Shown: positions 3,082 through 63,124 of the stretch, in pieces | How positions within the stretch are numbered: position 1 is the first letter of the stretch | Layout of the letters: the number at the start of each line of letters is the position of its first letter | Assembly: GCA_916610825.1 (NCBI GenBank) | Contig: OU744446.1 | Span: 1,872,501-1,936,500 of the forward strand | Reading direction: 5' to 3' | Length of the DNA: 64,000 nt | DNA from: Haliclystus octoradiatus | Taxonomy: Eukaryota > Cnidaria > Staurozoa > Stauromedusae > Haliclystidae | The notes under the pieces: generated by a model | Told to the model about the DNA's origin: nothing | What the model saw: only the letters and a program-made list of their open reading frames with translations | The model's database searches: none | Translations under genes and position numbers: made by a program

Positions 3082-5273
3082 CTGGAAGAGTGATTTCCGT
3101 CGTATTGACGACCATGTAGACATACGATTCTCCACCCTTTCCCGAACACTCTGTTACCGAGTTTTCATCACATGCTTGATAATCACCACCAATGCATGTG
3201 TTTGAAATACTGTCTAATGATTGAAGCATTTGTTCGATTTTATCTTCATCATCTGACCCCCAACATTCTGCGTAATTCGTTATTGTGAAATACGAAAAGT
3301 TCTCTTCCTTTGCTTTGTCATGACATCGACAGGCTAAGCTATTTTATAAAAATTTAGAATGATTTAATATATGAATTAACAGACCGATTCACAATCAAAC
3401 TTTTGCCACTATATTTTCCCTCTATTCTCGTTTTCAACCAATCATTGAAGGCTATTAGTTTTTCACACGTGAGGAAACTGATATGTCCAATCACTGTAGC
3501 CACGTATATTTATTTAACGATCGACACGCATGCAACCAAACATCAAGTAAAACCGACACACCGAAAACAACAATACACTCTTCCTGTATAAATATTTCTA
3601 ATAAATAAAACTAAATAGATAAAATATTACCTTCAAGTGCTAAACCCTTAGTAAAACAGGTAATAATTATAGAAGCGATGTAGCCTTTTAAACACAGCAC
3701 GTGTTGCCCTCCCCTACATTACAACACTATCATAATGTTTTCCCGGGAAGGTTTTCTCCTGCGAAAAACGTTTTTCATAAAATTCTAATTCTCGACTTCA
3801 GAATTTTGTTTAATATATTTATAGAACTCTAATTGATTGGATCTGTCATTCAAGATTGATTGCTGGAACATTTTGGAATTTATTTCTGATAGATATTGAG
3901 AAAACCTTTAGTGTGCTTTCCGGGGTTTATATATATCTATCAACATTATAGTAGTTGTTTTTTGCACCGAATTTAAAAGATATACCTTAACCTTACCAAT
4001 TTACGATGAAGGAGAGCTCCAAAGGAGTAGTTTAAAGAAATATTTACGATAGGTGTATTTGGGTTTTGGTTTGATGATTGGGTGTGAATCCGTGTAGCAA
4101 AACTGGATTGACTAATGATCTAATTACTAATAAGAAGGTCATTATATTTCGGACTATTATATAACTTTCATGTAATTCTTACCTAAAAAGTGCTTCGGGA
4201 TACTTCTTCCAATCCAAAAAGTATGTATTTATTGTTCCATCAGGATAGGTTGCCAAGCGATCGTTCAGAAGAGCTCTTGGAAAAATGTTATTGTTTTGTG
4301 AATAGCAACCAAGCTTGTCAAAATTTCGATCACAACTTTTCATTTGACTTTGGCTGTATACTGAAAGTGAAATCTGACATTTAACTACTGAATATCGTTG
4401 AATATAAAAATCTACTTTATACGTCAAAATATGTAATTTAATATACTTTCATTAATTTCAAAGGAGTGATAAATTTGCATTTCTTTTTGCTCAACCCGTT
4501 TTCAAATGAGTACAGGATAATGGAAGTTTTACTATCTAGCTTTTGTTAGTTTATTAGTGCAATCACAACCGAGAATACGTGCATACTTCATTTTCAATAA
4601 AAATATACATATAATAAATTCCTTTATATAACCATATTGATGCAATGTTTTTATTTAGTATTAACACTATGCATCATTGCACATAAAAAATATTGTATTG
4701 ATGGCAGAACTTCATTTTTTGTAGCCTCACTCGTGTTCTAAATCTATCCGAACAGTCGAAAATAAATTTTCTTGCTCCACAAAACTACTAAATTCTCTTG
4801 CTCCATGAAGAAATCTCTATTTACAAAAATAAGCAAGTTTATCCGCAATAGTTCAATTCAATTATACCTATCAAAGATCATTGCTGCACCCGAGGGGGGG
4901 TAACTCCCATATGACGGCTATACGGGGACGTGCCACTTTTGTTGGGTCCATATTCCAGCTGAGAAAAAAATTTTGGATATGAGATATCAAATTTTGGAGC
5001 TTTTGGGTATCCTATTTTTGACTTTATCAAGAATTTTTGAGTTTTGGTTTTCATTTTTGTGTATTTACTTAAAATCAATCAACCTGCTAGCACTTTTTGG
5101 GTAACATCAACAGAATTTTTGGAACTTTTTGGGAACTTTACAATTTTCCAAAGTGGCACTCCCTTGTCCCTGAAGAGCTGGAGTTACCCCCCAGGTTGCT
5201 GCATCATCAAGAGATCGATAGATATAATATATATACCTGAACTGGCAAGTAATAACAGGACACACAGAATCAT
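3082..5273 (-). CDS. lectin gene 1, 5' part (signal peptide + Cys-rich N-terminal region)
   Basis: Three exons join in phase: 5,237-5,273 (ATG directly after a TTTTTAG acceptor), 4,183-4,360 and 3,082-3,338, all with GT-AG borders. Exon 1 encodes the hydrophobic leader MILCVLLLLASS. Exon 2 has a Cys pair in SCDRNFDKLGCY. Exon 3 has YFTITNYAECW and further cysteines, a WSC-like Cys-rich pattern found in invertebrate extracellular proteins. Homology to gene 2 is clear in every exon. Exon 3 ends in phase 1, so a TSP1 exon should follow, but none is visible down to position 1. The gene either has an intron longer than 3 kb or is truncated. Two hAT-like MITEs have inserted in its introns. Secreted lectin-type function is inferred from the paralogues. 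Confidence 0.8.
4889..5195. mobile_element. hAT-like MITE, copy 2 (8-bp TSD)
   Basis: A 307-bp relative of the element at 2,726, flanked by the perfect 8-bp duplication TTGCTGCA (4,881-4,888 and 5,196-5,203). Its termini are CCCGAGGGGGGGTAACTCC and the inverse of GAGTTACCCCCCAGG. It lies in intron 1 of lectin gene 1, only about 40 bp below the signal-peptide exon. Confidence 0.88.
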
Positions 5274-6201
5274 CTAAAAATTAAAATAATAACGGTAATA
5301 ATAATGATGTAATATAATAATGTATGTCTCAGTTGCGCTTGCGCATTTTTGGGCATTATTAACTTGGGATGTGTCTATACTATTTGCGTTATGCATTGCC
5401 CACTACTTCGGTAGTTTGATCACTCTGATATGACACAGATGTTTTTTTCGTGTGGTGGATTTTTTCACCCAATTACTAACTCATCTTGACTTAGTTATAG
5501 CACGCTAAGTCAGTCCCTTGTGCAATGAGCAGTACTGACGACGGCTACTAGCCAGAAACAAGTACTTGTCTGCTGCTGCTAATAATTATAGTACATATGA
5601 TAATTATAATAATAGCATCATTATTCGATTTCAAATGGAGAAATTCTGATTTAAACTTCATCAAAGCTTGTATGTGTATATATGTATTTCTACGCTCTGG
5701 GATGAAAGAATTTACTTCGTTAGAGTTTTGATTGTCAATGTATAGGTAACGTAATTGCAAGGATGTTACAATCTATATGATGTAGTGAATCTTTTCTGAA
5801 AAGACGAAGGAATACTTCAAATGGCAGAGGGAACTTCCATCAGATTTTAGCGAGTCTGGTTTGAATGGTTCAAAGGCCTTGACCTTGATTTAATGGGGGT
5901 GATCTTGCAGGTTTACTTTAAGAAGATCGAAGGCTAAACCGCTGCGCTGTAAAGGGGTATAATCTTATCCCAATGGAATCTGTCGAATTGAAAGTAAGTT
6001 CAGTGATGAGAATTTATTCACCAATGCTGTAAATGCATGGAAAGATAAGAATGCTACGGCTGCCTTCCGTAGGGCTATAACGCCTCAAGTACTTACTCAA
6101 TCGATAAAGATCCTGAAGAAGGACTATTTGTTAGTTGAAAAGATCTAGTTAAACTATTGAGCTATCAATTGCAAATGTTTCCCATATATTTTATTTCATA
6201 C

Positions 6202-6278
6202 CTTAATTTGTTGTGATATTCTCCTTTCGCAGATAAAAACTAGCTCTTAATTGCCTTATGCAGCTGTTGGCGGTCAGA
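6202..6278 (-). other. 5' non-coding exon of lectin gene 1
   Basis: The minus strand reads AAATTAAG|GTATGAAATA, a good donor that matches the equivalent site in gene 2 (20,030). The exon starts about 30 bp below a TATA box and is spliced over about 0.9 kb to the AG|ATG acceptor at 5,274. The start near 6,278 is inferred from TATA spacing and from a block conserved with gene 2 (TCTGACCG versus TCTGAACG). Confidence 0.6.
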
Positions 6279-8427: not shown

Positions 8428-11400
8428 TCAAACACATTTGAATTCAACTGTAAGGTATTTTGTTGCTCCCACGCATGGATTATTCCCAAAGAATGATTTT
8501 CCAGATCGAACAGAGCATTTATTTTTCTTTTGGCACTTCTGTTTGACTTTGTGTAAGCTTGTTTTCGTGCAGCATCTTTCGTTTTTGCGTGAGATCTTTT
8601 CATTGCGTTTGATGCATGTTTTCTTATCTTGTCTACCGTAACATGCTTTTCTTATTTCTAATACTTTGCCATCTGAACATTGTAAATCCATTGTCTTATG
8701 CTGACACGCCGTTCTATGTTTCATTGTGTCATCTATAGAAAAAATAAATAAGATGAAAAATATGCTGTGCCGGAAAACATACGGACAGTATAAACATATG
8801 TATAGGCTCCGTAGTTGAATGCTCTTCATTTCGATAATGATGCACTGTTTCTGCTGACATTACAGGGAGATGTTCTGTAATCTACTATGGCAGTTTCTCA
8901 ATGCCCGGAATACAATAGACACGGCTTGACACGATGGAATGAGGCAAATGATGAAGGTGAATATAGGGATTTGCAATGGAATAACAAACATATGACTACG
9001 AATTAACAATTTAGTACAATATGAAACATCTCGATCATCAGCCATAAAAAATATACGAATGCTAGTACTTCCTCTGGCTTTTGAATCCCCTGAGTTATGT
9101 CGCACTCTATCTTGTGCTGAATAATACTATCGCCGATTTTTGATTGATTCAAGGCAATAACCTACTTAAATAAAACAATTATCAAGCATGATTTCCTATT
9201 TCAGTGAGGAATTTATGAAGCATAGACACAACAATCGTTTGAAATAATCTTCCAAATAAATAATAATTTGATAGAACAGCATTATCTACATGTGTTATTT
9301 ATAATATTCCTACCTTTGCAGTTGTGTCTGTTGCAATCTAAGAATTGCTTAGCTGTGCCACTACATTGTAAGCCACCGTTTCTTGGTTTTGGATTGTCAC
9401 ATACTCGTTCACGATATATTGTTCCTACGCCGCAACTTTTAGTACACTTTGAATAGGGTGACCAATTGCCATATCCACCATCAACTGAAATCAAAGATAA
9501 AGGTCTTTGCTTTTCTGGTGATAAATATACTGTGTGCATGTGAAATATGATACATTATGGAAGTTAGATTTAAGTCATAAAATTGTACAATGGCCTTTGG
9601 CATCGGTCTTCCAGATGGCACTTGATGCACTGATTCACATCATTTCTCATGGCCTGAGAAATGGCATTCACTTTTCATTTCAGATTTGGGATTGAAAGCC
9701 TGATTGAAAGGCACAATAGACAATATTTTGTATTCCAATGCAAACACAGGAGCTATAAGCTCGTTGACACGTAGGAATACGCAGTAGTCCCATTTAAATT
9801 CATCGATTTGAAGCTGGAATTATCTTTGCGCTTACTACGAATCTGTTTGTTCGTATAAATATCATCCTTTCTTCTGATTATTTTGCAAGTCATACCTGGG
9901 CATTCTTCTTCGTTGCATCTAACTACATTCTTAGATGGACCAGAACAATCTTGACCACCATTTGCAGGGCTTGGGTTATTGCATAATCTTTTACGAGACT
10001 TTTCTCCTCCTCCACATATTTTACTACACTCAGAAAAGGGTGTCCAGTCACCAAACCCTCCATCAACTGTAATAGAAAATGTGCAAGTAATTTTCTTGAC
10101 GTAATTGCCATATTGCTAGAGCAGCCACATTTGTTAAAGAAGCTTCTAACAGTAACGGTTTCCCGTTATTCCCTGATAGCGTTAGGCGAACAAATGCTTT
10201 TATTTCCTCTTCCTTTTGAATCGATTGAAATTTTTCGCACTTTTTATACTGAATAATAACATGGAACGTTTCTTAATTAATCCATGGCATTAACCTAGCT
10301 GAATAAAACAATTGTCAGATTTGATTTCGTATGAAAGTGAGAAATTAGTCAAGCGGATACACAGCAGTCGTTTGAAATGATCTTCAGGTTAAGTAGAATC
10401 CTACCTAACGACATCACGATTACAGGGTATCTTGAAGACTACACTATAATCTACAGAATACTGTTAAAAATTTCATATACTAGTGACAACTATAACAGAT
10501 TGAAGTTTATATAAGAATACTACAAATTTAAATTTCCAATCATGAATCACTCTTTACTGGCTGATAAAACTCTATTGTATACGTTATGCTGTTCCTATTA
10601 TTTTCCTACCTTTGCAGTCATGTATGTTGCATTGTGAGAATTGCCAATTTGTGCCACTACATCGTAGGCCACCGTTTTTAGGTTTTGGGTTGTCACACAC
10701 TCGTTCGCGATGCATTGTTCCTACGTCACAAATTTTTGAACACTCTGAATAGGGTGACCAATTGCCATATCCACCATCAACTGAAATCAAAGATAAAGGT
10801 ATTTGCTTTTCTGGTGATAAATACACTGTGTGCACATGAAATTAGGATACATTTTGTAAATTATATTTGAGTCATGAAATTGAACAGTGGCCTTTGGCAT
10901 CGGTCTTTCAGATGGTGCTTGATGTACTGTTCACATCATTACTCATGGCTTGAGAAACTGCATTCACATATTAACATTGAGCTTGAAAGGCGCAATGGAC
11001 AATTGTATGTATTCCAATGCAAACACAGGAGCTATATGCTCGTTTCCGCAGACACGCAGGAATACGAAGTAGTCCCATTTAAACTCATTGATTTAAATCC
11101 GGAATTATCTACGAATCTGTTTGTTCGTATAAATGTCATCTTTTCTTCTGATTATTTGCAAGTCATACCTGGGCATTCTTCTTCGTTGCATCTAACTACA
11201 TTATTAGATGGACCAGAACAATCTTGACCGCCATTTTTAGGGCTTGGATTATTGCATAATCTTTTACGAGACTTTTCCCCTCCTCCACATGTTTTACTAC
11301 ACTCAGAAAAGGGTGTCCAGTCACCGAACCCACCATCAACTGTGATAAGAAATGTGCAACTCATTATCTCGATGTAATGGTCATATTACAGGAGCTTTCA

Positions 11401-14400
11401 CACTGGTTAGATGAGCATCTCACCGTAATAATTTTCTCGTATTTCTTTAATATACTGTTAAGCCAATCAGAATCGACTTTGTGTCACATAGTGAGATTGT
11501 GTTGTTTTGATGATTGATAGTTTGCGGTCAAATTGTCAATCGTTATATAACTATAGCGTCTCTCAACAGACAAGCAAACTTTGCTTACGAGATGACATCA
11601 GCCACTGTATACATATTTTATTAATCAATGTCTCCAAGCCTGTATATATATTTTTATAATGTAGTTGAAATAAAATGCTATTCTATTCTATTCTAGTCTA
11701 TTCTATATTATATTATTGCATTGCATTCTGACTGAAATATTTATCATGACCAATTATGAAATTGATATGCAAGCCGTCCCGGTAACAACTCAACATTGTT
11801 TCATTGTTAGGCATACTCATTCTCCACAGCGCTACGCAGACACTTCTGCGGAATCTAAAGGCCTCTGACTATCTCTATTGTTATTTTAACAGTTTCAAAT
11901 CAGCTTGAAAATAGAAAAGTAAAGGTGTCATTGACAGGAATAAAAAATTCATAACACTGTATACTGTTTATCAATCTCCTTTTTACTATATTTTACATGT
12001 ATGTAAGGATTAATTATCAAAACTGAAACGCATTGTTGTGTTTTTCTGAAGTTTTATTCCTGTTCGATCATACAGCAAGTTTATTTTTCATTGACTTTCT
12101 CTTTGATAAGTTTACTGCAGGCTACTAAAGGGGGAGAGGAAGCGGCTCTTTAATGAAGCCGAAGGCTGACTGGCCCTTGGAGAAGGCCAAAGCCGAAGCC
12201 TTGTATGACATAAACTTCAAACGCATGGTCAATAAAAACTGACATACTCCAGAGGTAAATTTATACTCATGATGTTACTAGAAGAAAGCGAGGATAAGTG
12301 CTCGAATATAGTTCATGTCATTTTCCAAAACAGTAAATAGCAATATAAAATGCTTCAAACAGTTGAAATTCCTCACTGTGGTTAGAAGTTCAATAAATTT
12401 TTGTGGAGCTAATATATTTTTGATTGAATAAAAAAGAGCTTGTCTACGCAGCTAGAACATACATAGTTTAAATACAAATTTTTAACATATGCGTCTAAAT
12501 TCTCATAACAGTAGATATATCTACCAGATACGATGAATTCTGAAAGTGGAAAATGTGTTTTACGGCGAACATATTTATAGTCTAAATCACAGTAAATTCA
12601 TTATAAATATACGGTAGAATCTAGAAATATAAGTGAGATAGAGAGAAAAACTGTTCTACCGTTACCCACATCAGTTTTGAAAGAAAGAATCCCGGCTTCT
12701 ATCTCTTTTTTCTGATGTCAAACTGTTTCACAATGTTATCACAACACAACAAAGAAATTAAAATTAAAATAGATATGCTGGTGATAGCAGGCAGTAACAA
12801 TTCATCAAGTATTGATGTATTTGAAATACTGTTATTGATAATGACATTACCGTTAGAGGGAGAATTCCTAGCAAAATTTGTTAAAAAATTTGACGGAGCA
12901 TCAATTATTCACCTTATTGATAGAATATTTGTATTGCCAGAGCCGTTATTACCGTCCAATTCTACTGTAGATGATATAACTGATTACCATACCTGGACAA
13001 GGCTGTTTATTACAATTCACTACTTCTTTTGTTAAACCTTTGCAATGCTCTCCACCGTTGATTGGTGCTGGGTTATCACATGATCTTTTACGGTATTTCG
13101 TACCACCTCCGCATTTCTTATTGCATTTTGAATAGGCTGTCCATGGGCCAAATTTACCATCAACTGAAATTTAAAATACTATCTATCCTGCAATTGTATT
13201 TTAATAGACTACATACGCATTTATTGTTTAAAAAAATTATAATTGATGCAAAATATATAGCGATCAGGCGTTGTAAGATTGTATTCTAGAGATTTGAGTT
13301 AACTTGCAAAGTTTTCCATAAAAGAGCGTTGTTCAATGAAAAGATAGTACTTGTCTCTAACATAAGAGTTCTATTCTGAAATATTATTTCAAATCTTTTT
13401 TGATGATTCTTGTTATTCTTTCCAACTGTAAATTGATAAAATGTCCCAAATTATTTCAACTTACAATTTGAAATTTTCAAACCACTGTGCAACCATTGTC
13501 GCAAAAGCCCAATTCAAGAATGTTTCTTCTAATTAAAAAATTATTTATTATTTTCAAATGATAACAATAAATATGATATGCGTGGACATTTCCAGAAAAT
13601 TAAATCTAATGCAATACAGCATGTTAATTCATCATTTTATTCGTTCACCAACGGGGTCATTCTAATGTGGAACTTTTTATCAGAGGAAGTCATCAGTACA
13701 GCCTCATTAGCTGTTTTCCAATTTAGATTAAATAGCGTATCATTAGCACAATTTAAAAATTTATTTCAGCTGTATGTTAGTGTAATTAAATTTTCCTTTA
13801 CTTGCCCATCAAATTCCAATTCAACAAATATATCATTCATTCATAAAGGTATAGACAACAACAACAACAACAACAACAACAACAGCAACAAACAATAACT
13901 ACAACAATAACAATAGAGTACTACTACAACAACAAATACAACAACAGTAACAACTATAAGGACAACAGCTGCAGCAGCAGCAACAATAGCAATGAAAAAT
14001 ACACAATAATAACCAGAGCAACAAATATAACAACAAAAACAATAGCAACAACAACAACAGCAATAAAAAAAAAAAAAAAACCACATTGAACAACAAGAAC
14101 TATAAGAATGGTCAGATGTCTGTGATAACGTGCAGAAGCTACTATTGGCTAAAATGTATTTTGGACCATCGTTCGATACCTATAAATGTGAATGTGTTTG
14201 TGTGTATGTGTGTGTTTCCGGTTTTTTTTCATTATTTTCTCAGTCACTTCAAAACCAAATTTATCAAATAGCATATCATTTAATCGATAATTGCAAATAG
14301 TTTCACTTAACGGGCTTTGTATTTTCGAATTGTTCTTTTGCTCTGCCTATCAAGGAAGTTGTCATTTCACAGTCTGATTTGTTTTTGCGAACCACCATGC

Positions 14401-38000: not shown

Positions 38001-38126
38001 ATATGCTCCTATATATTCCATCCATATTATACTTCAGTATTAGTACAGTATAAAATCCCAGGAAAGGTTATCAATTGATACAAATTTAAATTAATTACAA
38101 ACTTGAACATTGCCTACCACACTTAC
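35051..38126. other. 5'-UTR intron of lectin gene 3
   Basis: No supported exon between the start-codon exon and the 5' non-coding exon. Short frames (36,121-36,354 and 37,003-37,218) are shared with unit B at the same level of identity as the surrounding DNA, so they are not evidence of coding. Confidence 0.55.
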
Positions 38127-48985: not shown

Positions 48986-49901
48986 ATGTTAAGGATGCTT
49001 GAAACAGTAGATCCAAAATTTTCCTTCTGTTGATTTATTTTTTTTAATTTTGAGAAGACAATTTAGTCGTTCAGAACTTCATTTTTCAGAAATAAAAGGA
49101 GGGTATCCAGATTAATTTGTGGGCTTTAAAGTCACCCCAAACGTCAATGATAATAATGCTCTAAAAACAGTCATTATTCAAATAAAAGACATGAAAACAG
49201 TTTAACGATCACATATAGCAATGAAGAAATACAAACAGTCGAGGACGAAAGTATTTGGAAGATGTGATGAAAGTGGTGAAATGAATCATAAATCTGTAAA
49301 TTTGTGTGAGAAAAATTTTTACGAACATTTCATAACCAACCAACATTTCATTGAGCTCAGATTCTGATTACCCTCACGATTTCATACGGACATACGTTAA
49401 TTTTTCTGGAAAGAGAAGCACAAAACAAAGACAATATTGATCATGAACAATTTATGAATTATTATCAATTAAATCAGAATGTATTCATATTAGTTGTTCA
49501 TATTACCTCAATTTTTACCTATAAATTTAGAATAGAAATCTAGTTTTAGTTTCAATATGAATATTTATTAATGTTGCCAAAAGCAACCATGATTTATAAT
49601 GTGTTTATTGAAAACCCTCGACATTTGGGCAATCGTCTTTGGCCATTTTCAATAGTGAAAGAAATGTAATTTAACAGGTTCATTTTATACTGTAAATAGT
49701 TACTTTACTTGTTTCACAAGTTAAATGTTTTTCACACATGAAATGGTCACAGGCAATAGCTTAAACGTTGAGATTTGTACTATTTTTGTTATCAAAAGAA
49801 GAAGCTACTCATCACGTACAACATGCAAATATATTATGCTAACTTAATGCTAGAATCCTATACAGATCCATTCATTACTGTGTCCACATTGTCCATCATC
49901 T

Positions 49902-52900
49902 CTATTCCCTTTCCAAAGACTCATCTTCTGCTGTAAGGTGACCTCTCGATGGAGAAGACTTCTTTGTAGAAGAATGTCTTCCCGCAGGCCTGAAATAGCG
50001 GAAATTGTACATACATGTAATAGACGCACACTCAATATATTTTAAATAAGGTGTAGCTTTCCGTTGCATTTATTCAATACTTCAAAATCAGTATTTCATT
50101 ACTTGCTTTTCAAATTTTTGAATAACAGACCTGCTATACATGACCTTTTTCGCTTCAAACTTTTTCTTAAAATGGTTATATTTTAATGAAATTTTTTATG
50201 TAAATTTTATAGCTTAAAATTTCTTCATCTCTTTTCCTCTATTATGTGTTAATAGCAATGATTTACTCGCTTTGCTAGGTTGGATATGGGAGATCGATTG
50301 GGAGATCCCTTCCGAACAAAAGTAGTGAGGATCTAATGCCGAAAAGACCGTCACCAAAATGAAAAGGTACATTTTTTTCAATAAAAAAAAGTTAAAAATC
50401 GAATAATTAAAAATTAATGGGATATAAAAACACAAATCAAAACACAGGGATTCGAATGATACTTCTTTTAGACAGTACATGTTGCGAGCATACGTTTGAA
50501 GCAACTGTTTTTATGTGTCAAGGTATATATAACATGTAATAAGCATGGTCCTAAATCTAACTCGGTCTACATTAAAGCTAGAAATGCGGGTAACTCTAGT
50601 ATACCATATAGTGAGCTGGACACAGCTGGTATCAAATGAGGAAAGGAAATAGGAGTTGAAATATAATATTTTACTTACTTATCACAATGAAATAGCACTC
50701 TCAAGGTGGGTCCCCCTTTTCTTCTGCCGCAGATTCTACCAAGAATAGAAAAATTCACAGGAATCGAACATTTTTCTCTTCCATTGCACATGTTTTTAAC
50801 AATATTTTTCACTCTCAATCTGCAACGCATAACCAATCTTCCATATGATGCACGGTGAATATGAAGTGTTTGCCTACTAAGACATCTCAAGTGCATTGTT
50901 TCACCTCGAGAAGAGGTTACTCTTCTTGGTCTTAACCCTCCGATGAAGCCTTCAAAAAGATGAACATAGAATCAAATAAAATTGGTCAATCATATATTCT
51001 GATGATTAGTTTTATGGTTTTGTGTATTTCAGCGGGCTCATCCATTTTTATAGTCAATATCACATACAATACAATACAATACAATATCGTGTGCCAATTG
51101 ACATGTAATATAAACTTGCACTAGTTTCACAAGTTCCACATGACTTTCTTGCTCATAAAATGTTTTTGAAAACTCCTGATCAAATTGGAAATTCTTTTAC
51201 TTGATATCAAGTTCGAAATGTAAGATCAATTGTGTTTTCGAATCTAGTTTTTCAATCGTGATTGGGCATCAAACTCTAAACCAATCCGATTGATCGATTC
51301 ATTTTCATTATAATACAAAATGCAATACAATAAAAAACAAATATGAAACAATAATTGCTTTTGTGCAAAGAAACAATGGAAACAAAGCATAAACAAGGAT
51401 AATTTCGGCCACTCAGGTAGGTACATTTTTCGCTACAATACCTATCTGGACAATGAAAACGTTATGTGTATCACCTTTGCTTTGTTTCATTGTTTTCTTT
51501 GTATAAAAGTAAATATCATTTCATATTTGTTCTTTGAATTGCTCAAGTCTCACTTCTGTGTTATGCCGATCTTGATGGATTGCGAAGTTTTCCAATCATG
51601 AAAATGAGGCAGCAATTCGAAAGCGGGACTTGAGCCAGTCAAATTTGTTCTGTATTGTATCCGTAATTAGTACCGCTGTAGACAATCTCTTCCGTCATAA
51701 CGTTTCATGTATTGTTTAGTATGTATAATAGTCGTATAGACACCCAAAATTTCAATTGATAATGTAAATTAGCCATTTAACTATAAATACTCTGTAAACA
51801 TCTTCCCTCTCTCTTTCGCCAACTGATCATGATGATACTAAAATGAATCGAAACTGTAGCAGATTATCGTGTGTTTCATTTGCCGCTATTTAGAACAAGT
51901 TTCCATATTGGCTGCTGAGAATAAATTACAGTATTCATAATTCATGCTGATCGTTTGATACTTGCCTCTATTAATTAAAGTCTAAGAACCTTAATTTGAT
52001 ATTAATAAAGATTTACCCTCATTGCAGGAGTTTCTGTTACAGCCTTCTCTTACTTCGGTTGCCTGACCAGAGCATGGTTTTCCACCATTCGATGGTGCGG
52101 GACTATCACATGCTCTTGTGCGAGACTGTGTGCCTCCCCCACAGCTTTTACTGCATTCAGTATAAGACGACCATCCTCCGTAGCCACCATCAACTATAAC
52201 GAAAATATTAATCATATGTCCTCAATGAATGTTTAGGTACTCCAAATCTATTGATTTAGCTTCAAGCTTCTTCCCAGCCATCGTCAGACCATCATTTATT
52301 CAGAAAATATTGAGCAAGTTATCAGCTGAGCTTATCGAATACATGAGGAGATATATATGGAAATATCATCATTGAAATACACGAAGAAAAATGAAATAAA
52401 CTGTTGCGACACTTGCCGATTTTATTTATCGTATTATCTAAATCCAGTTATAATTTTAAATCAGCAAAAACAGATGCAATTGATTGGTCTAAGATTTGTG
52501 GTTGGATTTATTTATAATATCAAGGGTTCAATTTTATATAATTCATCTTTCTGGTAGCAATTTTTGTTTGAGCATCAACAATTAGATATATCCCCAGAGT
52601 ATATGTCAAATTTTAATAATTTCCCTACTCAAACAAGCAGGGTTTTCATCACTCAAAGAGGCTGTGCTGTCACATACTTTTTGAGAGACCTGTCTGTCAC
52701 ATTCCCCATGTACAGCTTATACTACATCCAGTGTAAGAAGACCATTCTCCTTAACAATCATCAACGACATTATTTAATCATTTTATTACCAAGATCATTA
52801 CAGAACAATTGGCTCGTGGAAAATTAGAGCCTCGTGCATGTTTGAATTTCATTTATCGTTTGCCTTGTTTCTTTGCATGTGTCGTTTGAATTTTGTCAGC

Positions 52901-55900
52901 AGCTTGATATTTGAAGCCATGACTGGCTTTACATTGTTTGTTTAACCTTGTTTCAAAATAAGCTCGTATATAGTACAGCTGGTCAATGTTGCCCCGTTGA
53001 ATAAACGTTTGCGATTTAGAATGAGGTAAATGATACAAGTCTATCTGATGACTTGTGTATGCGAAATATATGTATGAGGGATGATCAGTTAAATGCGTCA
53101 CTTGGTATATATCTTCCTACCTGGACATGCATTAGTATTGCAACTTGTTTCCACTTCACTTGCTGGACCGGAGCAGGGTTTTCCACCACCCGAAGGTACT
53201 GGACTATCGCATGCTCTTTTTCGAGACCTTTCACCTCCCCCACAGCTTTTACTGCATTCAGTGTAAGATGTCCATGCTCCGTAACCACCATCAACTGCAT
53301 ATACAATATATAGAATATATAGAAATATGGTGAAAGATAGGACTTAAAGAAACATTTAAATTTTTTAAAAACGTTTTATAAACATAGCAATTTACCATAA
53401 AAAATGATCAGAATTAATATCAAAGTGCATGCATGTAATTAAATATATATGTATATTTGATTTAGAGAGAAACCTCACTCATCTTAGATGGTTTTCAGAA
53501 GGGTCCTTTATAAAAAAATCTGATTTAATCTAAATAATCTAAATTTAGCGTATCTATCAATAGAAACAATATTTAAAAGCTTATAAAGATGAATGTGAAG
53601 AGGTATATGTAACTTTATTAACAAAAATTGATGCTGTAAGAATATTTTTTTAAAAAAGACTATTTCAAACATGATGTTGGCATCTAAGGCATGTAATTGT
53701 TCTTTAAATGTTGCTTTGAGTAATTTCAAAGAAGTAGTTCATCTCGTGCTTGAAGTTTTTGAGTTCGAAGCATCTGTACACATGGAGTTCGTTTCCTCGT
53801 ACTCAAGTTTCATTTGAACGTAGATATTCTTAAATTTGTATTTTTCCTTGCAATGTATGCATGGAACTTTGAACTTTGTATGAAACCAAATCTACTAATA
53901 CTAATGCTACATTCCTTCAAATCGATGTTCACTATGGATTTCAATACAGATCAAATATTAGGGGTGCTTGAAATATTTCGCATTATCGATTTCCTAACTT
54001 AATTTAAGTTGAATTTCCTCGTATAATTATCCCATAAAATTATCATACCTGACAGCGTTTTGATTTCATAAAGAAAGAAACTCTTTTCTGTACCAACACA
54101 AGCTTTACCAGCTGAGCAGGTCTCTCCACCATCCTTTAGGCTTTCGATACATTCATTTGGATTTGATTGTAATGCTTCAGCCAGTTCTAATGCCTTGTCG
54201 TCTAAGATAGACATGCCTCGACATTCAGCATTGTTGTAGATTGCAAAATAGTTACTTTTCCTTGCAGTCAGTTGTGCACACGTGCAAACAATTCTAAAAA
54301 TCAAAAAATGAATTTCCTTATACAGCGCCTTGAATAAGATTGATAGAAAAACATTCAATCAATGATGAAGCCAAGCCTTTGCTTCAAGTCAGAGTTCAAT
54401 GGGTTAAAATGAAACTTTACCTCTCTATTATGTTTCAAAAAAACATGGAGTACTTTTAAAATTGATGTTTGCGTACAATTACTTATACATTTATTATTAT
54501 TATTTGAAAGAATCAAACATTTTACTTCATAATCGTTTTCAGAAGCTTCTAATTTAATATTTACGTTTGCATATATATAGAGAAAAAAATCTGTACGGAT
54601 TTGACACCCACATTAATTTTTCTTTTTATACATGTAATGCTCAAAGAGATTTCAGCATTTAGTAAATATATATACTCATACAACACTTTAAGCGTCACTT
54701 GCAGCAGTCTATTATTTGGAACAACGTTCGCGATCAGCCTCGCTTTTATTGCAGTTTTCAACATAAAAGGTAATTCCAGGAGCAACAATTTGTAATAATA
54801 CTGCACGCAGAGGAATGAATAGGAAAATGTTTGATTAATCTGGCTATTTATTTCAGAAAGTAGATGAAGTCCAAAAAAATCACTCAACGTTGCTCATTGT
54901 TGAATTTCCTCTTCTCGATCGGCCATCTCCTCATTGACCATTCGATGTTAGTCCGTCATCAGTCTTGTGAAAAAGCTTGCAATTTATCATGAGTCTGAAT
55001 AAGCGACAATCAAAAATTAGCACTGTGTAGCCCTATCAGGAGGCCACCGTGTCACTCGTCTACTTCCAGCTAAGTCACACGTTCGTTTCTCTTCAAGATC
55101 CTTGTAAATACTCTTTACTGATCTCATCCACGACACTACAGAACAATTTAAACAAGTTTCATTGCTGATCTGCATCGATTGTCAATCTGAAATGATGCCT
55201 AAAGCTCATCATAAGGCAGTTCCATCTGTGCCATTCCATCCGCCATCAGAAGACGGTACTCATTTGATGTTGAAGAAGTTCAAGTCAGAGTTTGAGTTCT
55301 CAATCAGGTGATTTGGACCACAGTGCCTTTCACAACGAAAAGATAATAATGATTATGACTATCTGTTTCAATTGTTAAATAATGAAATTAATAGATCATG
55401 TTGAACTGATTGAACTGTATGCATAACAATTCTACATTAACCCCATTATCGATCGTAGTATGAGTGTAGCATAAGTAGGATCGACTTACTCCTCAAATAC
55501 GGCAGTTGTATTAGCTACATCTCCTTCAAGTTTGAAATTCCAATCAAACTCTTTGAAGCGAAATATTTTGTCAACAGTTTCTTTCTCTGCTGTATAACAT
55601 GCCTTGTTTATATATGCCTGCTTGCATGAATTTTCAACGGTCTTTGGTGCATCTGAAATGGGATATCGTAGTCAAAATATATTGAAATAGTCGATAAAAA
55701 ATGCAAAGAGAATTGCAATGCAGCATTATGCGGGAGTGAAAATGTTACTTATGAACAATCTATATATTTATCAATCCTAATTACAACACAACGAATAATT
55801 GCCAACATGTGTGTGTTATTTTTCTATTCATAACTCTGTTACATCCCGTTTGCTGCAGCTTTGGGATCTCCCAATCACACGGACCATTGCTAATACAAAT

Positions 55901-56590
55901 GGAGACTACGTGGTGGCCTCGGTTGTAGTGTACGTGGTTAAGGCGTCGTAATTTGGATTGGTACCTCAGCCTGCAACGTATTGTGTTAGATAGACTTTTT
56001 ATTCTCGCCAACAAAATTAAAATTGACCTTTTTGGCATTTCCCAAATTCAGTGATATTTCGAGGGTTGGTGATTATATCCAATCAAGCCCACCCCTCAGT
56101 TTGTGACAATGGGAAGTTATCCGGCTAATTCGCCTATTCTTTACCAATTAAATACGTTAAGGAATTTCAAAATTCAACAACTTACAAGATATATTTTAAC
56201 TTTTCTATTATTCCTCGCAACCAATATACTTATTATTCACCGAAATTGTCGAAAGTATAAATGACTATATACTTTCACCAATTTCGGTGAAATTTGATAA
56301 ATTTCATAGATGTTGGTGAAATCAAAAGTAATTTGCTTTTTGCCTAATGGAGAATTTAAAATGTTTGGTTACGTCTGTCTAAATATGAAAAAGATATTAG
56401 AATACTGGATATGAAAATGAGCTCGGTATCTAGAATGCAGACCAAAAAATAATGAAGTGGCACGAAATACATGAATTAAGGATTTGATGAAAATGATATT
56501 GATTAACTTACACAAAGGCACTTTTCCGGTTGAAAATTTTACCATACAGGAAAGTATTAATGAGAGGAGAAGGGAATTCTTCAATGACAT
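49902..56590 (-). CDS. lectin gene 4: paralogue of gene 3 (398 aa)
   Basis: Same structure as gene 3, all in phase: 56,512-56,590; 55,490-55,652; 54,049-54,293; TSP1 exons 53,121-53,294 and 52,017-52,193; SUEL exon 50,679-50,949; last exon 49,902-49,989. Splice sites are intact. Differences from gene 3 are few: Leu to Phe and Ala to Thr in exon 2, Ile to Arg in the second TSP1 (EVREGCNRNSC), Glu to Asp at the end of SUEL, and Gly to Arg near the C-terminus (LERE). Exon 3 is identical in protein. No inactivating change was seen, so both copies look functional. SUEL keeps YGR but lacks the DPC-G-T-KYL motif. Its 5'-UTR intron holds a 3.7-kb LINE, making it about 6.4 kb against 3.1 kb in gene 3. 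Confidence 0.87.
51065..51750. repeat. dispersed repeat B2 with fold-back element in inverted orientation
   Basis: Short ATACA run, the TATAAACTTGCACTAGTTTC block, then the fold-back interior (51,335-51,651) inverted relative to 29,955-30,271 in unit A. The distal left arm is deleted. Confidence 0.85.
51534..51642. mobile_element. 109-bp MITE (9-bp TSD), unit B copy
   Basis: The same insertion as 29,964-30,072 but inverted together with the fold-back interior. It is flanked by ATTTGTTCT (51,525-51,533 and 51,643-51,651), the complement of the unit A duplication. Confidence 0.88.
52637..52764 (-). pseudogene. vestigial TSP1 exon of lectin gene 4
   Basis: The same dead TSP1 exon as at 31,155-31,315, with the mutated acceptor (GTCG|TTGATG) and in-frame stops. 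It carries a further ~40-bp deletion of its 3' part. The exon died before the segmental duplication. Confidence 0.8.
55024..55331 (-). mobile_element. older SINE copy (unit B)
   Basis: Related to the 27,965 SINE. It keeps part of the B-box (CACTGTGGTCCAAATCACC) and the GGCGGATGGAATGG body block. The unit A counterpart at 33,551 has lost the tRNA-like end. Confidence 0.75.
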
Positions 56591-57555
56591 CTGAAATAAT
56601 ATGAAAAGAATTCTTCAGAAGAAAACATCACTGGTGCAGTTTGTCGAAAACAAATGAAACTGAAAGAATGGTGAACTGCCAAATGAGATTTTCAACCTTC
56701 AAATCGCTTTTCCCGTGCATATAGTTTATAAATAGTAAAAAAGTTGTCAAACTCGTTATTTTGTATGATATTTGGCATTCAGACCTCGAAACTCTATCAT
56801 CTACTTCAACCTATACGATTTCATTAGATAATAGAGCCATCGGTCTGATAGTTATGCAATAGCACACTCGAATTATTTCAATACTTCATGTTTATTGTTT
56901 TGGACGTTACATCTACTCAAACAATCAGATTGCTACATTTTTTTACATATTAATTTATAATTTCAATCGAAAAACTAATCAATTCGGTATTTATAGATTA
57001 AAGAATAGCAACATTGTTAACAAATCTTAAAATTCGTGTACATTTTAAGTCCATGTTTATAATTATTCCTGTTTTAATATATTTGCCTCATTATCTGACA
57101 TTTCATCCATATTAAGTTCATCTTTCATTATTGTTCAATCTATAGCTTTTTTTTTTTAAATATTGCGATACCAAATGTTACTGTATCAGAACCGTTTTGT
57201 ACAACTGATCGTGCTTCAATATTGTTTTCATTGCAGTTAACATCCAATAAAAGAGAATCTTCTTATCGCTATGATTACACAAAAGCTGATTTTGTAGGAG
57301 TTAATCGATACGTAGCTTAGATAAACTGGATAACCTCTTTCTCATGTATGGATTTCAATTCAAGACTGCTGTGATCATTTTCTAGCACTTCTTTATTATC
57401 TTAACCGAACTTATGTACAAATGAAAGCATCTTGACAAAACAATGTCAAAAGTCATCCTGGTTATATAAAACGACTTATTGGTAGAAAGCGATAGGCGTT
57501 CTAGTCATAATAATCAAGACATCGACATATGCAAACAAATTGCAAAATAATGCAA

Positions 57556-60500
57556 ATCAAAGATTTTTATAAACGACCAAAATGTCGAAATGAATGTTGT
57601 TAACCAGACAATTCAAGAGCAGTTGTACATTTTATTTGTCAAAGTTAATTTTATTTGTTACTCTTTAAAGTTGTCCGTTAAACATTGTACATTCAAATTA
57701 TTTATTGTTCTCTGATTTGTTTTATTGTATTTGTCTCATTGTGGTGTTTGGTTTAATATTTTATTCATTGGTTTTATTGTTCGCTGGCTGGTTTTCGTCG
57801 ATACTTGACCTTTTGACCCTTCCCTTGTGGTTTGTAGATGTTTGTTTGATTTATCATGTTTGTCAGTTATCTTATCACACTTATCGTATTACAAAGTCAA
57901 TGTCGTCCATATGTCTGCAATTTATCAACACAAGCCACTGTTTAATGCATCAAAAACTGGTTTCAACTTTCTGTATATACAAAACAATAATTTTCTCTCA
58001 ATCTCTAGTTCTTTATTTTTATTTAAACCTAATTTAGTTATAAAATATAAGTACTGTAAATATTTAATTTTTTTGCTGTTGATTTTGCTTCTCGCTGGAG
58101 ACATTGAAACTAACCCTGGTCCTGATGGTACTTCTGGATGTGTGGATGGTGGAGAGGTCTACACTGACACCAATGGCTTGAAGATCTGCCATCTCAATTC
58201 TGGGCAAGGAGGAGTACTAACTCACTTCGATAACATCATTCATTTCATCGCGGAGCGCTGCCCAGACGTCCTCTGTTTGACAGAGACCTGGCTATCACCT
58301 GAGATACCAGACAACCTCATATCTCTGGATGGCTACAATTCTCCCATAAGGTACGATAACAGTGGTCAATTTGTTGGCAAACAAGGAGTTTTAATTTATG
58401 TAAAATTAGGATATTTATTTAAAGTTCCAACCACATACAATGATTTTAATTTAATGAGTACTACAATAGAACTCCAAATACCACACACTCGAAACAATTT
58501 ATTTATTACATGTATATATAGACATCCACACGCACACATAGATTATCTAGACGAATTTTCCAATTTTTTAGGTTATTTAGACCATAACAATAAATCAAGC
58601 GTAATTTTAGGAGATTTTAATATTAACACACTAAATATCAATTCATCCTTAACAAGGAAGTTAACCTCAATCCTAACAGAAAACAGTTTTAATCAACACA
58701 TTACACCCCCCACACGAATAACCGGCTCATCGTCCACCTGCATTGACTTAGCCATTTCTAATCTAGACAGCGATCAAATCAAAGCAGGCGTCACTTTCGA
58801 TATATTGGCTGATCACCAAATGAACTATTTAATATATAACACTATCTCTAATAAACCTGTACATAACCACAAACTTACCTTAACACGCAATTACAAAAAT
58901 TTAGATACACAGTCACTTAATCTGGCCATACAACAAACTAATTGGGAATTCCTAGATTATTTCATGGATGTGAACGAGGCATACTATGCTTGGCAATCCA
59001 TGTTTAACACCATTGTGAATCAGTTTGCTCCTCTCAAGAAAATTAGAATCAAATCAAGGAACCACCATATTTATTTAGATGATCATGCTATTATGTTGAG
59101 GAATAAGCGTGACAACTACCACAAATTATTTATTAGGACTAAAGACATAACATTTTTTAATTTATTTAAGCATTCTAGAAATGAATTTACGAAATATTTT
59201 AGGCTATGCAAAAGAACTTATTATTGTAAAAATATATTAGAAACAAAACAAAATCCAAAACAAATGTGGAAGTTTTTAAAACAATTATTACCAAACAAGA
59301 GAAAAAATGTAAATATCAATGAAATCAATATAGATGATAAACCTATTACGAATACATTAACAATAGCAAATGAATTTAATAGTTACTTTTTAGAAATACC
59401 AAGCAAATTAGCCTCATTAATTCCATCGTTAGATAACTACAACCCAATTACTTTAGCAAAAACTTATTTAAATTCTGTATCAAATACACACACTCTAGCA
59501 AATCAATTTAAATTTAATTTAATTTCGAACTCAGACACGGAACACGTAATTTTTAAACTTCCCCAAAAACGGTCAGTTGGTATTGACCAAATCGAAACGC
59601 GCATTTTGAAACTAACGGCGCACAGTATTGCACCGTCCTTAACAAAAATATTTAACCTTTCTCTCAGTAGTGGTGTCTTCCCGGAGGCACTCAAAACTGC
59701 TAAGGTTTCTCCATTGCACAAGGGAGATACCATCACCGAGAGAACAAACTATCGCCCAATCTCCGTACTCCCTGTTATCTCGAAACTTTTAGAGAAGCTG
59801 TATATATGCAATTTAACCATTATCTGTCTCTTCACAATTTACTCACAACATTTCAATCTGGTTTTCGTAAAAATCACTCAACAGATACTAGCACTTTAAA
59901 CTTTTCGGAGTTTTGTTACGATAATATATTTAATCATAAATTAATAGGTGTAGTCAGCATTGACTTGAAAAAAGCTTTTGATACTGTAAATTTTTATATT
60001 TTAGTGGACAAATTACAATTATACGGTAGTGATGAAAATAGCTTAAATTTTTTCAGATCATATTTAATAAATAGAAAACAAATTGTAAATATAAATAATA
60101 CTAATTCTAATTTAGGTACAATAAAACATGGCGTTCCTCAAGGATCGATCCTTGGGCCATTACTATTTTTAATTTATATAAATGATATTTCTGATTCTGT
60201 ACATAATTGTAACATTAATTTATATGCTGATGACACTTTATTATATGTCGCAAATAAAAATGTAAATATTATTGAACATTCCTTAGTAACTGACTTGAAC
60301 CAAATCTACGGCTGGCTATGTGCCAATAAACTAACATTAAATGTCGTTAAAACAAATTGTATGATGATAGGCACTAAACCAAACTTGAAAAAACAAGATG
60401 CAAACCATGATGTTCAAGTGAAGTTGAATGACGAACCTGTTAAGCGTGTGTATTTATTGAAGTATTTAGGTGTCTTAATCGATGAAAACCTGTTATTTGA

Positions 60501-61231
60501 TGACCATATTGATTGCATAATTAAGAAAATCAATAGAGGGTTGGGTGTCCTCAAATTTATAAGACGTTTCATTCCGCAAGAATCAGCTCAATTAATTTAT
60601 AACTCTATTGTTTTGCCACACTTTGATTACTGCGCTGTCGCATGGGGGAATTGCAAAGTCCAACATCTTGACCGCCTCCAGAGATTACAAAACAGAGGAA
60701 TGAGGGCAGTACTCCGTTGTAATTATCGCACTCGAATCTCTGATATGCAAAGCCGGCTTGGCTGGCTTTCTGTCAGAGACAGAATAACCTCACCCAACTA
60801 ATGCTCACTCACAAACTAAAATTCAATCTAGCTCCTCCTCTGCTCTCCCATATATTTCAACAACCAAATACGACCAAGACAAGATCTCACACCCATAATG
60901 ACATATACATCAAGTCAAGCCATTGCCACTCATTTCAATATGCTGGTACTCACAAGTGGAATGATCTACCGTCTACAATGAAGGAGGTTTCCAAAAGGAA
61001 AAGTTTCAAAAGTCTCCTTGAGAAGCATTTAAATACCAATAAAATTACAGCATCTAATAACTGTTAAGTTTCGTATTTAATTAACCTTGCAGCTGTACAT
61101 ATATCTATGTATTATTGTAATCAATTATTTTATGTTTATTCTCTATTTTATTACGTAAATCAGTCCTGTGAAAAAAAGTTATTGTAAAACTTATCAGGTT
61201 CTGAATAAATGATGATGATGATGATGATGAT
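57556..61231 (+). mobile_element. CR1-like non-LTR retrotransposon, B-specific
   Basis: A 3.68-kb insertion defined exactly by the empty site in unit A (near 36,014). It has no target duplication or only a minimal one, as is common for CR1. The 3' end is TTCTGAATAAAT(GAT)n. It carries one long decayed ORF with endonuclease and reverse-transcriptase domains and lies antisense in the 5'-UTR intron of gene 4. Confidence 0.95.
57827..61067 (+). pseudogene. LINE ORF: 2A-like leader, APE endonuclease, reverse transcriptase (two frameshifts)
   Basis: Frame 1 (57,827-59,899) has a hydrophobic N-terminal part ending in LLAGDIETNPGP (residues ~89-99), a match to the 2A D-V/I-E-x-N-P-G-P consensus. The AP-type endonuclease follows: LTETWL, YRHPH, GDFNIN and ADHQ, then RT motifs from YRPISVLPVISKLLEK. 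A frameshift near 59,800 moves to the frame ending at 60,801, which has SIDLKKAFDTVN, GVPQGSILGPLLF and the catalytic YADD. A second frameshift near 60,795 leads to the C-terminal part (60,801-61,067; KWNDLPSTM). Length and order fit CR1-clade ORF2. Otherwise well preserved, so insertion is fairly recent, after the segmental duplication. Confidence 0.92.
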
Positions 61232-63039
61232 GAGCTTTTTATGCGCATGTAATAAATTTAAAGCAAGAAAAAGACTTATGCTGCCCCTTTACTATTGTCA
61301 CCGTATGGCTTAAAACATATGATCTTGAATAAGCAGAATGCGAAAATTCTCCAGCATATTTTTCAATGACGATGGTGAATTGCCACTCTTTCTTCGTCAA
61401 ATGACAAATATCCTTGAGAACTTTGAGTTCGATACTCCTGATATTCTTGTTGCCATAAATTGCATTAAGGCGAAATTATCAAGTTCATCGGATGATGTTC
61501 CTGCATTTTCCATCCAAAACATTGCTGATACCCTTGTTACACATTTTCATATCATCGTTTATGCCTGGTAATTACATTTCGTCCCTTGTTACTCTGACTT
61601 ACGGTCATAGTAGCCGTTAGCATTTCATGTATGAGGAAAATGATACAAAGACATTAATTTACTGGCGTCTCGATAGATTTACTTTGTGATTTCCAACAGC
61701 TCAAAGCTCTAAGAATCTAGCTTATATTCCTAGTAATTTATTTTTCGCATAGCACTTACTCCTGAATAAAATCGATAGCACTCAGACGGAGAAATATTTT
61801 GCATAATTTTCATCCAAGGTATCACACACAATTTCCTCACATTACTTAGACCGTCAAAGTTTATTGTGATACACATTGGACCCGATATACCTTGTATTTA
61901 CTGTGCAAACTTATAACGAGGATGAGACTCAGAAAGAGTACTTTTGGGTGAAAACATTTAAATTCCAATCTAAATAGGCTATAGGCAGTATTCGTGAATT
62001 GTAGCCTCGGAATTTGTAGCCTTTAATTATATGGTTTTTTGAATGTCTATAAGCCTCGGAAAATAGCCTATGCCTGACTGTGACTTGATGAATATCCGTA
62101 TCCTTGCAATCGATTTTAAAATTCATTGATGGATAGCTCAAATAGCTGTAACAGTTTGAGTTAGGCGATATCGGTCAAAAAACACAGAGCTATGGAGGCT
62201 TTATTATAAGGCTTGGTTTAGGTTTTATGATTATGGCCAAGGGTATTCCAACTATATCTCGATTATATAGAGATAGGTAGATCAATAATCATTACTATTC
62301 GTAAACAAATCAGAACTGGTTATATCTACTGCCTGGATATATTAAGGAGGTCTTCAACAGGAAAGGAATGAATTAAAAAAACTACATGATAGGAAAGAAA
62401 TGAAATGGATTTTCACTTGTACTGCCCTGGTAACATCTGAGCAGTATAAATTTTCCGGAAATTTAAATACCATAGTTATAGTCAAAAAAATAGAGGGAAA
62501 TTTTTCCCGCCACAGATTTTCCTTTCTATGCTCTCCATTTCATAACTGATAATAATCCAAATACTTCGACCGTCGACTGTTTCTGTCGCTTCAGTGAAAT
62601 ATGTGACCATTTATATGTTCTTGTGTCTTGAAAAATGATTGTTTTTATAACATGCATTATTATTGACGTAAAAGATTGAGTGATTTCAACTTATTCGATA
62701 GAAATAATGCCCATAATCCTGCTGTGGGTCCTTCGATTTCAGCATTTGTGATTTGAATTTTTATCCCTATGCTTTGTGCAATTGTTTTCAGCAATACACA
62801 AAATTACATAAGATTATAAAAAAATCATATAAATTCACAAAAATGTTTAATACTGCCGTAAAAGACTGCCTGATTATTGATCATTCGAATTTTGAATATA
62901 TTTTCTTCTATGCATATGCTCCTATATATTCCATCCATATTATACTTCAGTATTAGTACAGTATAAAATCCCAGGAAAGGTTATCAATTGATACAAATTT
63001 AAATTAATTACAAACTTGAACATTGCCTACCACACTTAC

Positions 63040-63124
63040 CTCCGTCCTGATTATCGATCCAGCACAGCTCAAATTGCCACTAGCTTCAGCAAAGCTTTCG
63101 TAGAGACTGGTAAAAACAAAGTTT
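63040..63124 (-). other. 5' non-coding exon region of lectin gene 4 and duplication border
   Basis: The donor GGACGGAG|GTAAGT at 63,040 is conserved with gene 3. Similarity to unit A ends at 63,124. Any promoter above that point is not shared with gene 3, and no TATA box is evident in the adjoining unique sequence. Confidence 0.45.

Follow-up and report, generated by a model that had tools for sequence, protein, structure and literature searches.

A tandem cluster of rhamnospondin-type TSP1 and SUEL lectin genes, probably kept alike while multiplying, in the stalked jellyfish Haliclystus octoradiatus

Introduction

The rhamnospondin of Hydractinia symbiolongicarpus (Rsp-1 and Rsp-2) is secreted and carries several TSP1 repeats in a row, followed by a single SUEL lectin domain at the C-terminus, and its family has also grown by duplication (PMC3269628, PMC4820225; cited, like all literature here, for individual passages). 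Tsrp2 and the hypostome thrombospondin repeat (TSR) proteins of Hydra likewise join TSP1 repeats to a galactose-binding lectin domain, a combination that has been termed apparently cnidarian-specific (PMC4820225). Here we describe genes of this kind in a stretch of 64,000 nucleotides (the window, C1:1872501-1936500) within the genome of Haliclystus octoradiatus (Cnidaria, Staurozoa), which we infer to lie on chromosome 1 of this stalked jellyfish. Four paralogues in the window (genes 1 to 4) belong to a group of genes that extends over about 0.4 Mb. We read this group, with a probability of roughly 0.78, as a tandem cluster encoding rhamnospondin-type secreted, multivalent glycan-binding proteins that have been kept alike while multiplying. 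Judged by its predicted proteins, the cluster is a variant of the rhamnospondin type with a different N-domain and different repeat numbers.

The likeness is one of described architecture and not of compared sequences. Tsrp2 of Hydra has 11 TSR and one lectin domain, and another Hydra gene has one TSR and five lectin domains (PMC4820225); the passages cited make no mention of an N-domain. Rhamnospondin is described in the cited passages with eight TSP1 repeats, whereas the Haliclystus genes have two, three or five (window genes) or nine (gene B, a neighbour) before the SUEL domain. Its N-terminus is called serine-rich in a passage of a review (PMC3269628); here we find instead a cysteine-rich domain encoded by two exons (the N-domain, exons N1 and N2), and serine makes up 8.4% and 7.7% of the first 155 residues of genes 2 and 3, respectively. 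Unlike rhamnospondin, some genes of the Haliclystus cluster lack a SUEL domain. Two lectins of known structure, 5h4s and CSL3 (2zx0), which we take to be from sea urchin and fish, respectively, share the SUEL domain with these genes. They differ in that the gene 2 SUEL domain matches three stretches of the former chain and two of the latter, which are repeats of the lectin domain, and neither chain is known to contain TSP1.

The TSP1/lectin proteins of Hydra and Hydractinia are expressed in the hypostome, and the Hydractinia rhamnospondins have been proposed to bind microbes (PMC4820225, PMC3269628). A first-pass annotation of the window had described the latter as polymorphic hypostome lectins; hypostome expression agrees with these sources, and polymorphism goes unmentioned in the passages of the review and of the citing papers. 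In green Hydra, symbiosis is accompanied by elevated levels of a transcript best described as rhamnospondin 1 (PMC6019070). The superfamilies most enriched in the pedal disc of Exaiptasia include TSP1 repeats, and expression of two rhamnose-binding lectins is increased there; for Hydra, the same paper cites six rhamnose-binding lectins with a potential link to adhesion (PMC6626399). Among adhesive proteins, one from a flatworm contains TSP1 repeats and one from a sea star contains galactose-binding lectin domains (PMC6410801). A search of the literature on Haliclystus lectins, cnidarian SUEL/TSP1 families and conversion of lectin exons, at the level of titles and the beginnings of abstracts, returned nothing on this locus.

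The published H. octoradiatus genome consists of 33 scaffolds and 262 Mb (261,898,343 in a figure legend), with a longest chromosome of 39,977,743 bp and a GC content of 33.8% on chromosome 1; 33 haplotypic duplications were taken out genome-wide during curation (PMC9975415). The sequence searched here consists of 33 contigs and 261,861,806 bases, with a C1 of 39,977,743 bases.

Results and discussion

Gene models and domain composition

Exon models were built from stop-to-stop frames, Pfam matches and reading of exon edges, and then verified by joining the exons. All four paralogues are on the minus strand, and the introns between the exons listed in Table 1 are all GT-AG. Each gene begins with a signal-peptide exon (phase 0-1), followed by N1 (1-2) and N2 (2-1), the TSP1 exons (each 1-1) and a C-terminal SUEL exon (1-end). 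The joined exons, with matching phases, encode complete open proteins of 541 aa (gene 2) and 370 aa (gene 3 and gene 4). The gene 1 frame stays open over the 157 aa encoded up to the last exon inside the window; the gene crosses the left window edge and continues 1.3-4.6 kb beyond it with three TSP1 exons and a SUEL exon (C1:1867903-1871233).

The first-pass annotation had placed four paralogues on one strand between positions 3082 and 63124. All are present, and both coordinates are exact feature ends, of gene 1 N2 (its last base) and of a segmental duplication, respectively. The proposed cysteine-rich N-terminal region and phase 1-1 TSP1 exons are borne out by the joined models and their conserved phases. 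So are the repeat numbers, five TSP1 in gene 2 and two plus a dead one in each of genes 3 and 4, the dead ones being relics detected by tblastn. No TSP1 had been visible in gene 1, which is true inside the window but is an edge effect given the three that lie beyond it.

Signal peptides were judged by hydrophobicity alone. Each gene has one, but they are of two kinds rather than a single kind shared by all four as first described: a 12-residue peptide in genes 1 and 2, and a longer one common to genes 3 and 4. For genes 1 and 2 we searched the upstream DNA for a hydrophobic first exon, short and with a phase-1 end. With strict settings only the gene 3 exon was returned, and looser settings gave two candidates each for genes 1 and 2, of which the top-ranked encode identical 12 residues.

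TSP_1 (PF00090) was identified in seven of seven TSP1 exons scanned, at 41-50 bits (E 3.3e-13 to 2e-10; cut-off 21.6). The exons scanned were those of genes 2 and 3; the two of gene 4 encode the gene 3 protein or are one residue off. SUEL exons of gene 2 (69.3 bits) and gene 1 (70.5 bits, beyond the window at C1:1867906) are above the PF02140 cut-off of 31.4. The whole gene 2 protein contains five TSP_1 stretches (2.5e-47) and SUEL_Lectin (5.5e-18), and that of gene 3 two TSP_1 stretches (5.3e-17) and a weak SUEL match of 23.1 bits, below the cut-off. The anticipated profiles are present in the translations for TSP1 and for the gene 2 lectin; the SUEL matches of genes 3 and 4 fall just short of the cut-off. 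Against chains of known structure, the gene 2 SUEL domain matches 5h4s at 3.6e-34 and CSL3 at 1.4e-22, and the gene 3 SUEL domain matches 5h4s at 2.1e-9 (phmmer). Residues of the DPC, YGR and KYL type contact the sugar in rhamnose-binding lectins. Aligned with structures of such lectins, the lectin of genes 1 and 2 retains YGR and KYL, with NPC in place of DPC. The rhamnospondin-like architecture, TSP1 repeats with one C-terminal SUEL domain, is supported by these predicted proteins: the gene 2 model fits it, and genes 3 and 4 would do so with a degenerate SUEL domain.

Growth by duplication

The surroundings were searched with tblastn of exon peptides and a hidden Markov model (HMM) scan, over 284 contiguous kb, which include the window, and over two separate 10-kb stretches, a scope that leaves out about 120 kb between the window and C1:2066500. 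The group recognised at first as a cnidarian cluster of rhamnospondin-like TSP1 and SUEL genes is indeed one, and is larger than first described, continuing on both sides of the window to about 0.4 Mb. It contains at least 13 N-domain exons, and the number of TSP1 per gene ranges from 2 to about 31. On the minus strand the HMM scan identified 89 TSP1-type exons (61 at 55 bits or more), 11 N2 exons, 11 N1 exons (8 at 40 bits or more) and 12 SUEL exons (10 at 40 bits or more). Three matches of 9 to 12 bits on the plus strand look like chance. The N2 exons in C1:1.67-2.05 Mb comprise nine found with the gene 2 query and four with the gene 3 query (13 in all). The 12 SUEL exons of the cluster comprise eight among the matches listed in the family search, which returned at least 105 genome-wide, and four of the gene 3 type.

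Growth by gene, segment and exon duplication, already proposed by the first-pass annotation, is supported by the segment copies, a four-copy unit and an exon pair in gene 2. The exon-pair duplication (9300-10114 versus 10596-11387) is 85% identical including introns. A TSP1 tree pairs gene 2 T2 with T4 (100/90) and T3 with T5 (99/88), and places T2 and T3 of gene 1 and T1 and T2 of gene 5, a neighbour, outside both pairs; thus gene 2 acquired two repeats after its split from gene 1. This tree was built from 58 columns of 38 of the 61 exons over 55 bits, with gene C, another neighbour, thinned to eight of its 31, and has strong support on eight of 33 inner branches.

Genes 3 and 4 are held by two copies, A and B, of a segmental duplication, and a long interspersed nuclear element (LINE) of 3.7 kb (57556-61231) is present in copy B only. 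The gene part of this unit occurs four times on C1 (1906320, 1927860, 1970812 and 2015110). The extra copies, 3c (C1:1966078-1972042) and 3d (C1:2010376-2016340), are both intact. A 4-kb piece of the 9-kb spacer, made of dispersed repeats, occurs three times (1912900, 1953678 and 1999130), and the spacing of gene and spacer copies together suggests a tandem unit of about 41-45 kb. Genes 4, 3c and 3d encode identical proteins. Between 3c and 3d there are 11 differences over 9670 sites, and gene 3 differs from the other copies at about 2.1%. The latest expansion is one that raises the dosage of one protein, not variety.

Constraint and homogenisation of the lectin exon

Between copies A and B, 9 of 1113 coding sites differ, versus 263 of 9930 non-coding sites (2.6%; Fisher p 3.6e-5). 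Substitution between genes 3 and 4 is 0.0046 per non-synonymous site (dN) and 0.0205 per synonymous site (dS). With two exceptions, dN is below dS in all exon or gene pairs compared, the highest other ratio being about 0.5. One exception is 3c-3d, with no coding difference at all; the other is a near-identical pair of tandem units of gene C (units 2 and 3), in which three differences give dN 0.022 and dS 0. Among genes A, B and the gene C tandem units, this is the single pair in which dN is not below dS. Positive selection was sought by pairwise dN/dS among cluster paralogues and was not found, a comparison that is blind to positive selection at few sites.

Seven pairings of N1, N2 and TSP1 exons between genes 1 and 2 have dS of 0.36 to 0.70 and identities of 78-83%. 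Their SUEL exons, in contrast, differ at 5 of 303 nucleotides (98.3% identical, dS 0.072, one residue change), and the similarity drops away about 15 bp upstream of the exon and about 10 bp past the stop codon. Third positions differ at 3 of 101 sites in the SUEL exon versus 88 of 315 across another five exon pairs (p 4e-9). The gene 5 SUEL exon is about 20% different from those of genes 1 and 2, with dS of 0.58-0.70; thus, with constraint alone, silent sites of this exon do diverge. The simplest reading of these alignments is gene conversion limited to the part of the sequence that is still similar, with recent copying of the exon by another route as a less simple alternative. That conversion halts where the exon ends would probably reflect introns too diverged to match.

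Weighing the explanations

If the cluster encodes conserved, multivalent glycan-binding proteins, the products would be secreted, and the lectin tail would bind rhamnose- or galactose-bearing glycans. TSP1 repeats commonly bind glycosaminoglycans, and the TSP1 neck may bind matrix or cell-surface polysaccharides; tail and neck together could coat or agglutinate particles in surface or gut mucus. The cluster has grown at three scales (exon pairs, single genes and units of about 40-45 kb), presumably by unequal crossing-over. Purifying selection keeps the copies similar, and in the gene 1 and gene 2 lectin gene conversion probably adds to it. A narrower version, which we find rather doubtful, has a constant tail and a variable neck: a lectin exon held by conversion, a TSP1 neck of 2 to about 31 repeats and an N-terminal cysteine-rich cap. 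If true, binding specificity would be fixed while reach and valency vary.

Several points weigh against reading the locus as a conserved lectin cluster. The SUEL exons of genes 3 and 4 score just below the PF02140 cut-off (Table 1). In alignment, the gene 3-type lectins retain YGR and lack the first cysteine and the DPC-like and KYL-like motifs, and they have probably lost or changed classic sugar binding; lectin motifs do vary among the genes, as the first-pass annotation had noted. The lectin is not universal, as genes A and C have no SUEL exon before the next N-domain. Conversion is seen as one event in one exon pair. The exon joins are based on frame, phase and homology, and splice edges were verified for the window genes, the neighbours A, B, C and 5 being exon matches only. 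Also, near-identical copies could partly be assembly error.

In its full form, this last point would make genes 3 and 4 (and 3c and 3d) haplotypes of one locus placed in tandem. The non-coding divergence of 2.6% is within the range possible in a heterozygous marine animal, 3c and 3d are as close as noted above, and curation of this assembly did take out haplotypic duplications (PMC9975415). However, copies A and B have four different flanks in a window without any N, a 9-kb spacer lies between them, the LINE is in one only, and the four copies show two levels of divergence. We consider such an artefact very improbable. The diversifying recognition system suggested at first, a fast-evolving immune repertoire whose lectins and repeat numbers shift under positive selection so as to keep pace with microbes, could draw on the wide range of TSP1 number among paralogues, the expanding copy number and the microbe binding proposed for Hydractinia rhamnospondins. 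Weighing against it are dN below dS in all but the two pairs described, three copies with identical proteins and the homogenised lectin exon, and we regard it as unlikely.

For the conserved lectin cluster that we favour, microbe or food capture and a part in mucus or adhesion both remain candidate roles. The genes may form a conserved, rather than diversifying, set of lectins secreted at the mouth or gut, where they would bind microbes, symbionts or food particles, a reading that comes close to an even chance. These genes would share their domain logic with the hypostome-expressed Rsp of Hydractinia and Tsrp2 of Hydra, and the rhamnospondin 1-like transcript of symbiotic green Hydra (PMC6019070) is consistent with this role, whereas the gene 3-type lectins look impaired for canonical sugar binding. 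As a serious but somewhat less probable rival, the products may be adhesive or mucus proteins in the pedal glue or surface mucus of a sessile animal, with amplification serving dosage. Identical recent copies fit dosage, and this role agrees with the TSP1 and rhamnose-binding lectins of the Exaiptasia pedal disc, the adhesion link in Hydra (PMC6626399) and the flatworm and sea-star adhesive proteins (PMC6410801), but the Hydra and Hydractinia relatives closest in architecture are expressed in the hypostome.

The locus places a rhamnospondin-like family in Staurozoa, shows TSP1/lectin genes multiplying at exon, gene and 40-45 kb scale in one place, and presents a clear case of a lectin exon homogenised while neighbouring exons diverge. 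It also argues against assuming that an invertebrate lectin cluster, wherever it has expanded, is a diversifying immune repertoire.

The cysteine-rich N-domain

Seven spliced N-domains were aligned, out of 13 in the cluster (the others are near-copies or are without a clear or covered first exon). They have 14 invariant columns in common, of which seven are cysteine. A Pfam scan of the N-domain gave no family above cut-off. A PDB search with it gave no convincing match, the best (0.012) covering 44 positions of a PfEMP1, which looks like chance. An AlphaFold2 model of exon N2 alone was of low confidence (mean predicted local distance difference test score 60) and was not used.

Weak Pfam scores prompted us to consider WSC (PF01822), which we rejected, as none reaches the cut-off of 27.8 bits. 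PF01822 matches three of 11 N2 exons (best E 0.0047) and two of seven spliced N-domains (best E 0.0092). A genome-wide PF01822 search returned six places, none in the cluster, and hhalign of the N-domain against three true WSC exons of the same genome gave a probability of 0.2%, a weak comparison given the shallow alignments (7 and 3 sequences). A match to 7pz2, presumably a yeast Wsc1 domain, at E 0.72 counts for WSC.

Genome-wide there are at least 29 N2 matches (25 with the gene 2 query and four with the gene 3 query). Twenty of the 29 are in SUEL clusters, 13 here, three at C1:18.6 Mb, three at C5:4.67 Mb and one at C5:5.6 Mb; the remaining nine are outside SUEL clusters, among the matches listed. 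The family of exon matches, most of them in lectin clusters, highlights a cysteine-rich domain without a Pfam match above cut-off. At C5:5590401-5635407, at least 29 SUEL exons occur on one strand within 45 kb, with one N2-type exon inside.

Neighbouring genes

Gene B (C1:1804100-1819599) has nine full-length TSP1 and one partial, and its SUEL domain contains both DPC and KYL. Four TSP1 were identified in gene A (C1:1824174-1829481), and the next gene follows without an intervening SUEL. In gene C, the N-domain exons (C1:1751586-1753116) are followed by 31 TSP1 exons (55 bits or more) up to the next N-domain, an exon count rather than established membership in one transcript; ten of the 31 form tandem units, each 243-248 bp long. 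Two TSP1 and one SUEL exon make up the part of gene 5 that was covered (C1:2045712-2050141), its first exons falling outside that DNA.

Also present are 14 tandemly arrayed units that measure about 240 bp and each contain a short TSP1-like match (C1:1722203-1725478), and about five tandem units of 3.1 kb at 96-98% (C1:1837593-1852913). A broken TSP1-like stretch with stops (C1:1858553-1858708; tblastn E 1e-7) is the sole clear one on the plus strand.

Feature coordinates and minor observations

Table 1. Features of the four paralogues and of the segmental duplication, in window positions.
Feature	Position	Strand	Remarks
Gene 1 signal-peptide exon	5237..5273	-	12 aa, phase 0-1, peptide as in gene 2
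Gene 1 N1	4183..4360	-	phase 1-2
Gene 1 N2	3082..3338	-	phase 2-1
Gene 2 signal-peptide exon	17695..17731	-	
Gene 2 N1	16242..16419	-	
Gene 2 N2	14734..14984	-	
Gene 2 TSP1 T1	12993..13163	-	PF00090 E 1.1e-11
Gene 2 TSP1 T2	11169..11339	-	PF00090 E 3.3e-13
Gene 2 TSP1 T3	10610..10780	-	PF00090 E 1.9e-10
Gene 2 TSP1 T4, sister of T2	9896..10066	-	PF00090 E 3e-11
Gene 2 TSP1 T5, sister of T3	9314..9484	-	PF00090 E 3.7e-12
Gene 2 SUEL exon and stop codon	8428..8732	-	PF02140 E 3.6e-19
Gene 3 signal-peptide exon	34972..35050	-	
Gene 3 N1	33950..34112	-	
Gene 3 N2	32605..32849	-	
Gene 3 TSP1 T1	31672..31845	-	PF00090 E 2e-10
Gene 3 dead TSP1, internal stops	31158..31316	-	tblastn E 5e-5
Gene 3 TSP1 T2	30526..30702	-	PF00090 E 3.1e-11
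Gene 3 SUEL exon and stop, degenerate lectin	28387..28661	-	PF02140 30.2 bits
Gene 4 signal-peptide exon	56512..56590	-	
Gene 4 N1	55490..55652	-	
Gene 4 N2	54049..54293	-	
Gene 4 TSP1 T1	53121..53294	-	protein identical to gene 3 T1
Gene 4 dead TSP1, matched part, internal stops	52703..52765	-	E 0.001, gene 3 T1 query
Gene 4 TSP1 T2	52017..52193	-	
Gene 4 SUEL exon and stop	50675..50949	-	PF02140 30.5 bits
Segmental duplication copy A, holds gene 3	23256..38211	.	blocks of 95-98% versus copy B
Segmental duplication copy B, holds gene 4	47454..63124	.	

The likely start ATG is directly preceded by AG and a pyrimidine tract in seven of eight genes searched (paralogues, not independent cases), at 5273, 17731, 35050 and 56590 (minus strand) and at C1:1829836, 1820430 and 1753526. 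This is either a conserved intron in the 5' untranslated region or a spliced-leader acceptor. For this survey we used the best of four candidates in gene A and the shorter of two nested ones in gene B. The sole candidate of gene E is without AG and may not be its start.

Two dispersed repeats, at query positions 1-1628 and about 1730-4001, make up region 40400-44400 and recur in many genome copies at 92-99%; a 238-aa frame in it (41425-42141) had no Pfam match at 0.01. The LINE in copy B encodes an endonuclease (PF03372, 3.1e-10) and a reverse transcriptase (PF00078, 4.4e-26) in two overlapping frames, and near the start of the first is GDIETNPGP, which we take to be a 2A-like motif. The last intron of gene 3 contains an (ATACA)n array of 853 bp (28771-29623), for which gene 4 has no listed counterpart. 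In the intron between T2 and SUEL, a stretch of about 400 bp is inverted between gene 3 (29880-30280) and gene 4 (51325-51720), at 90.5%.

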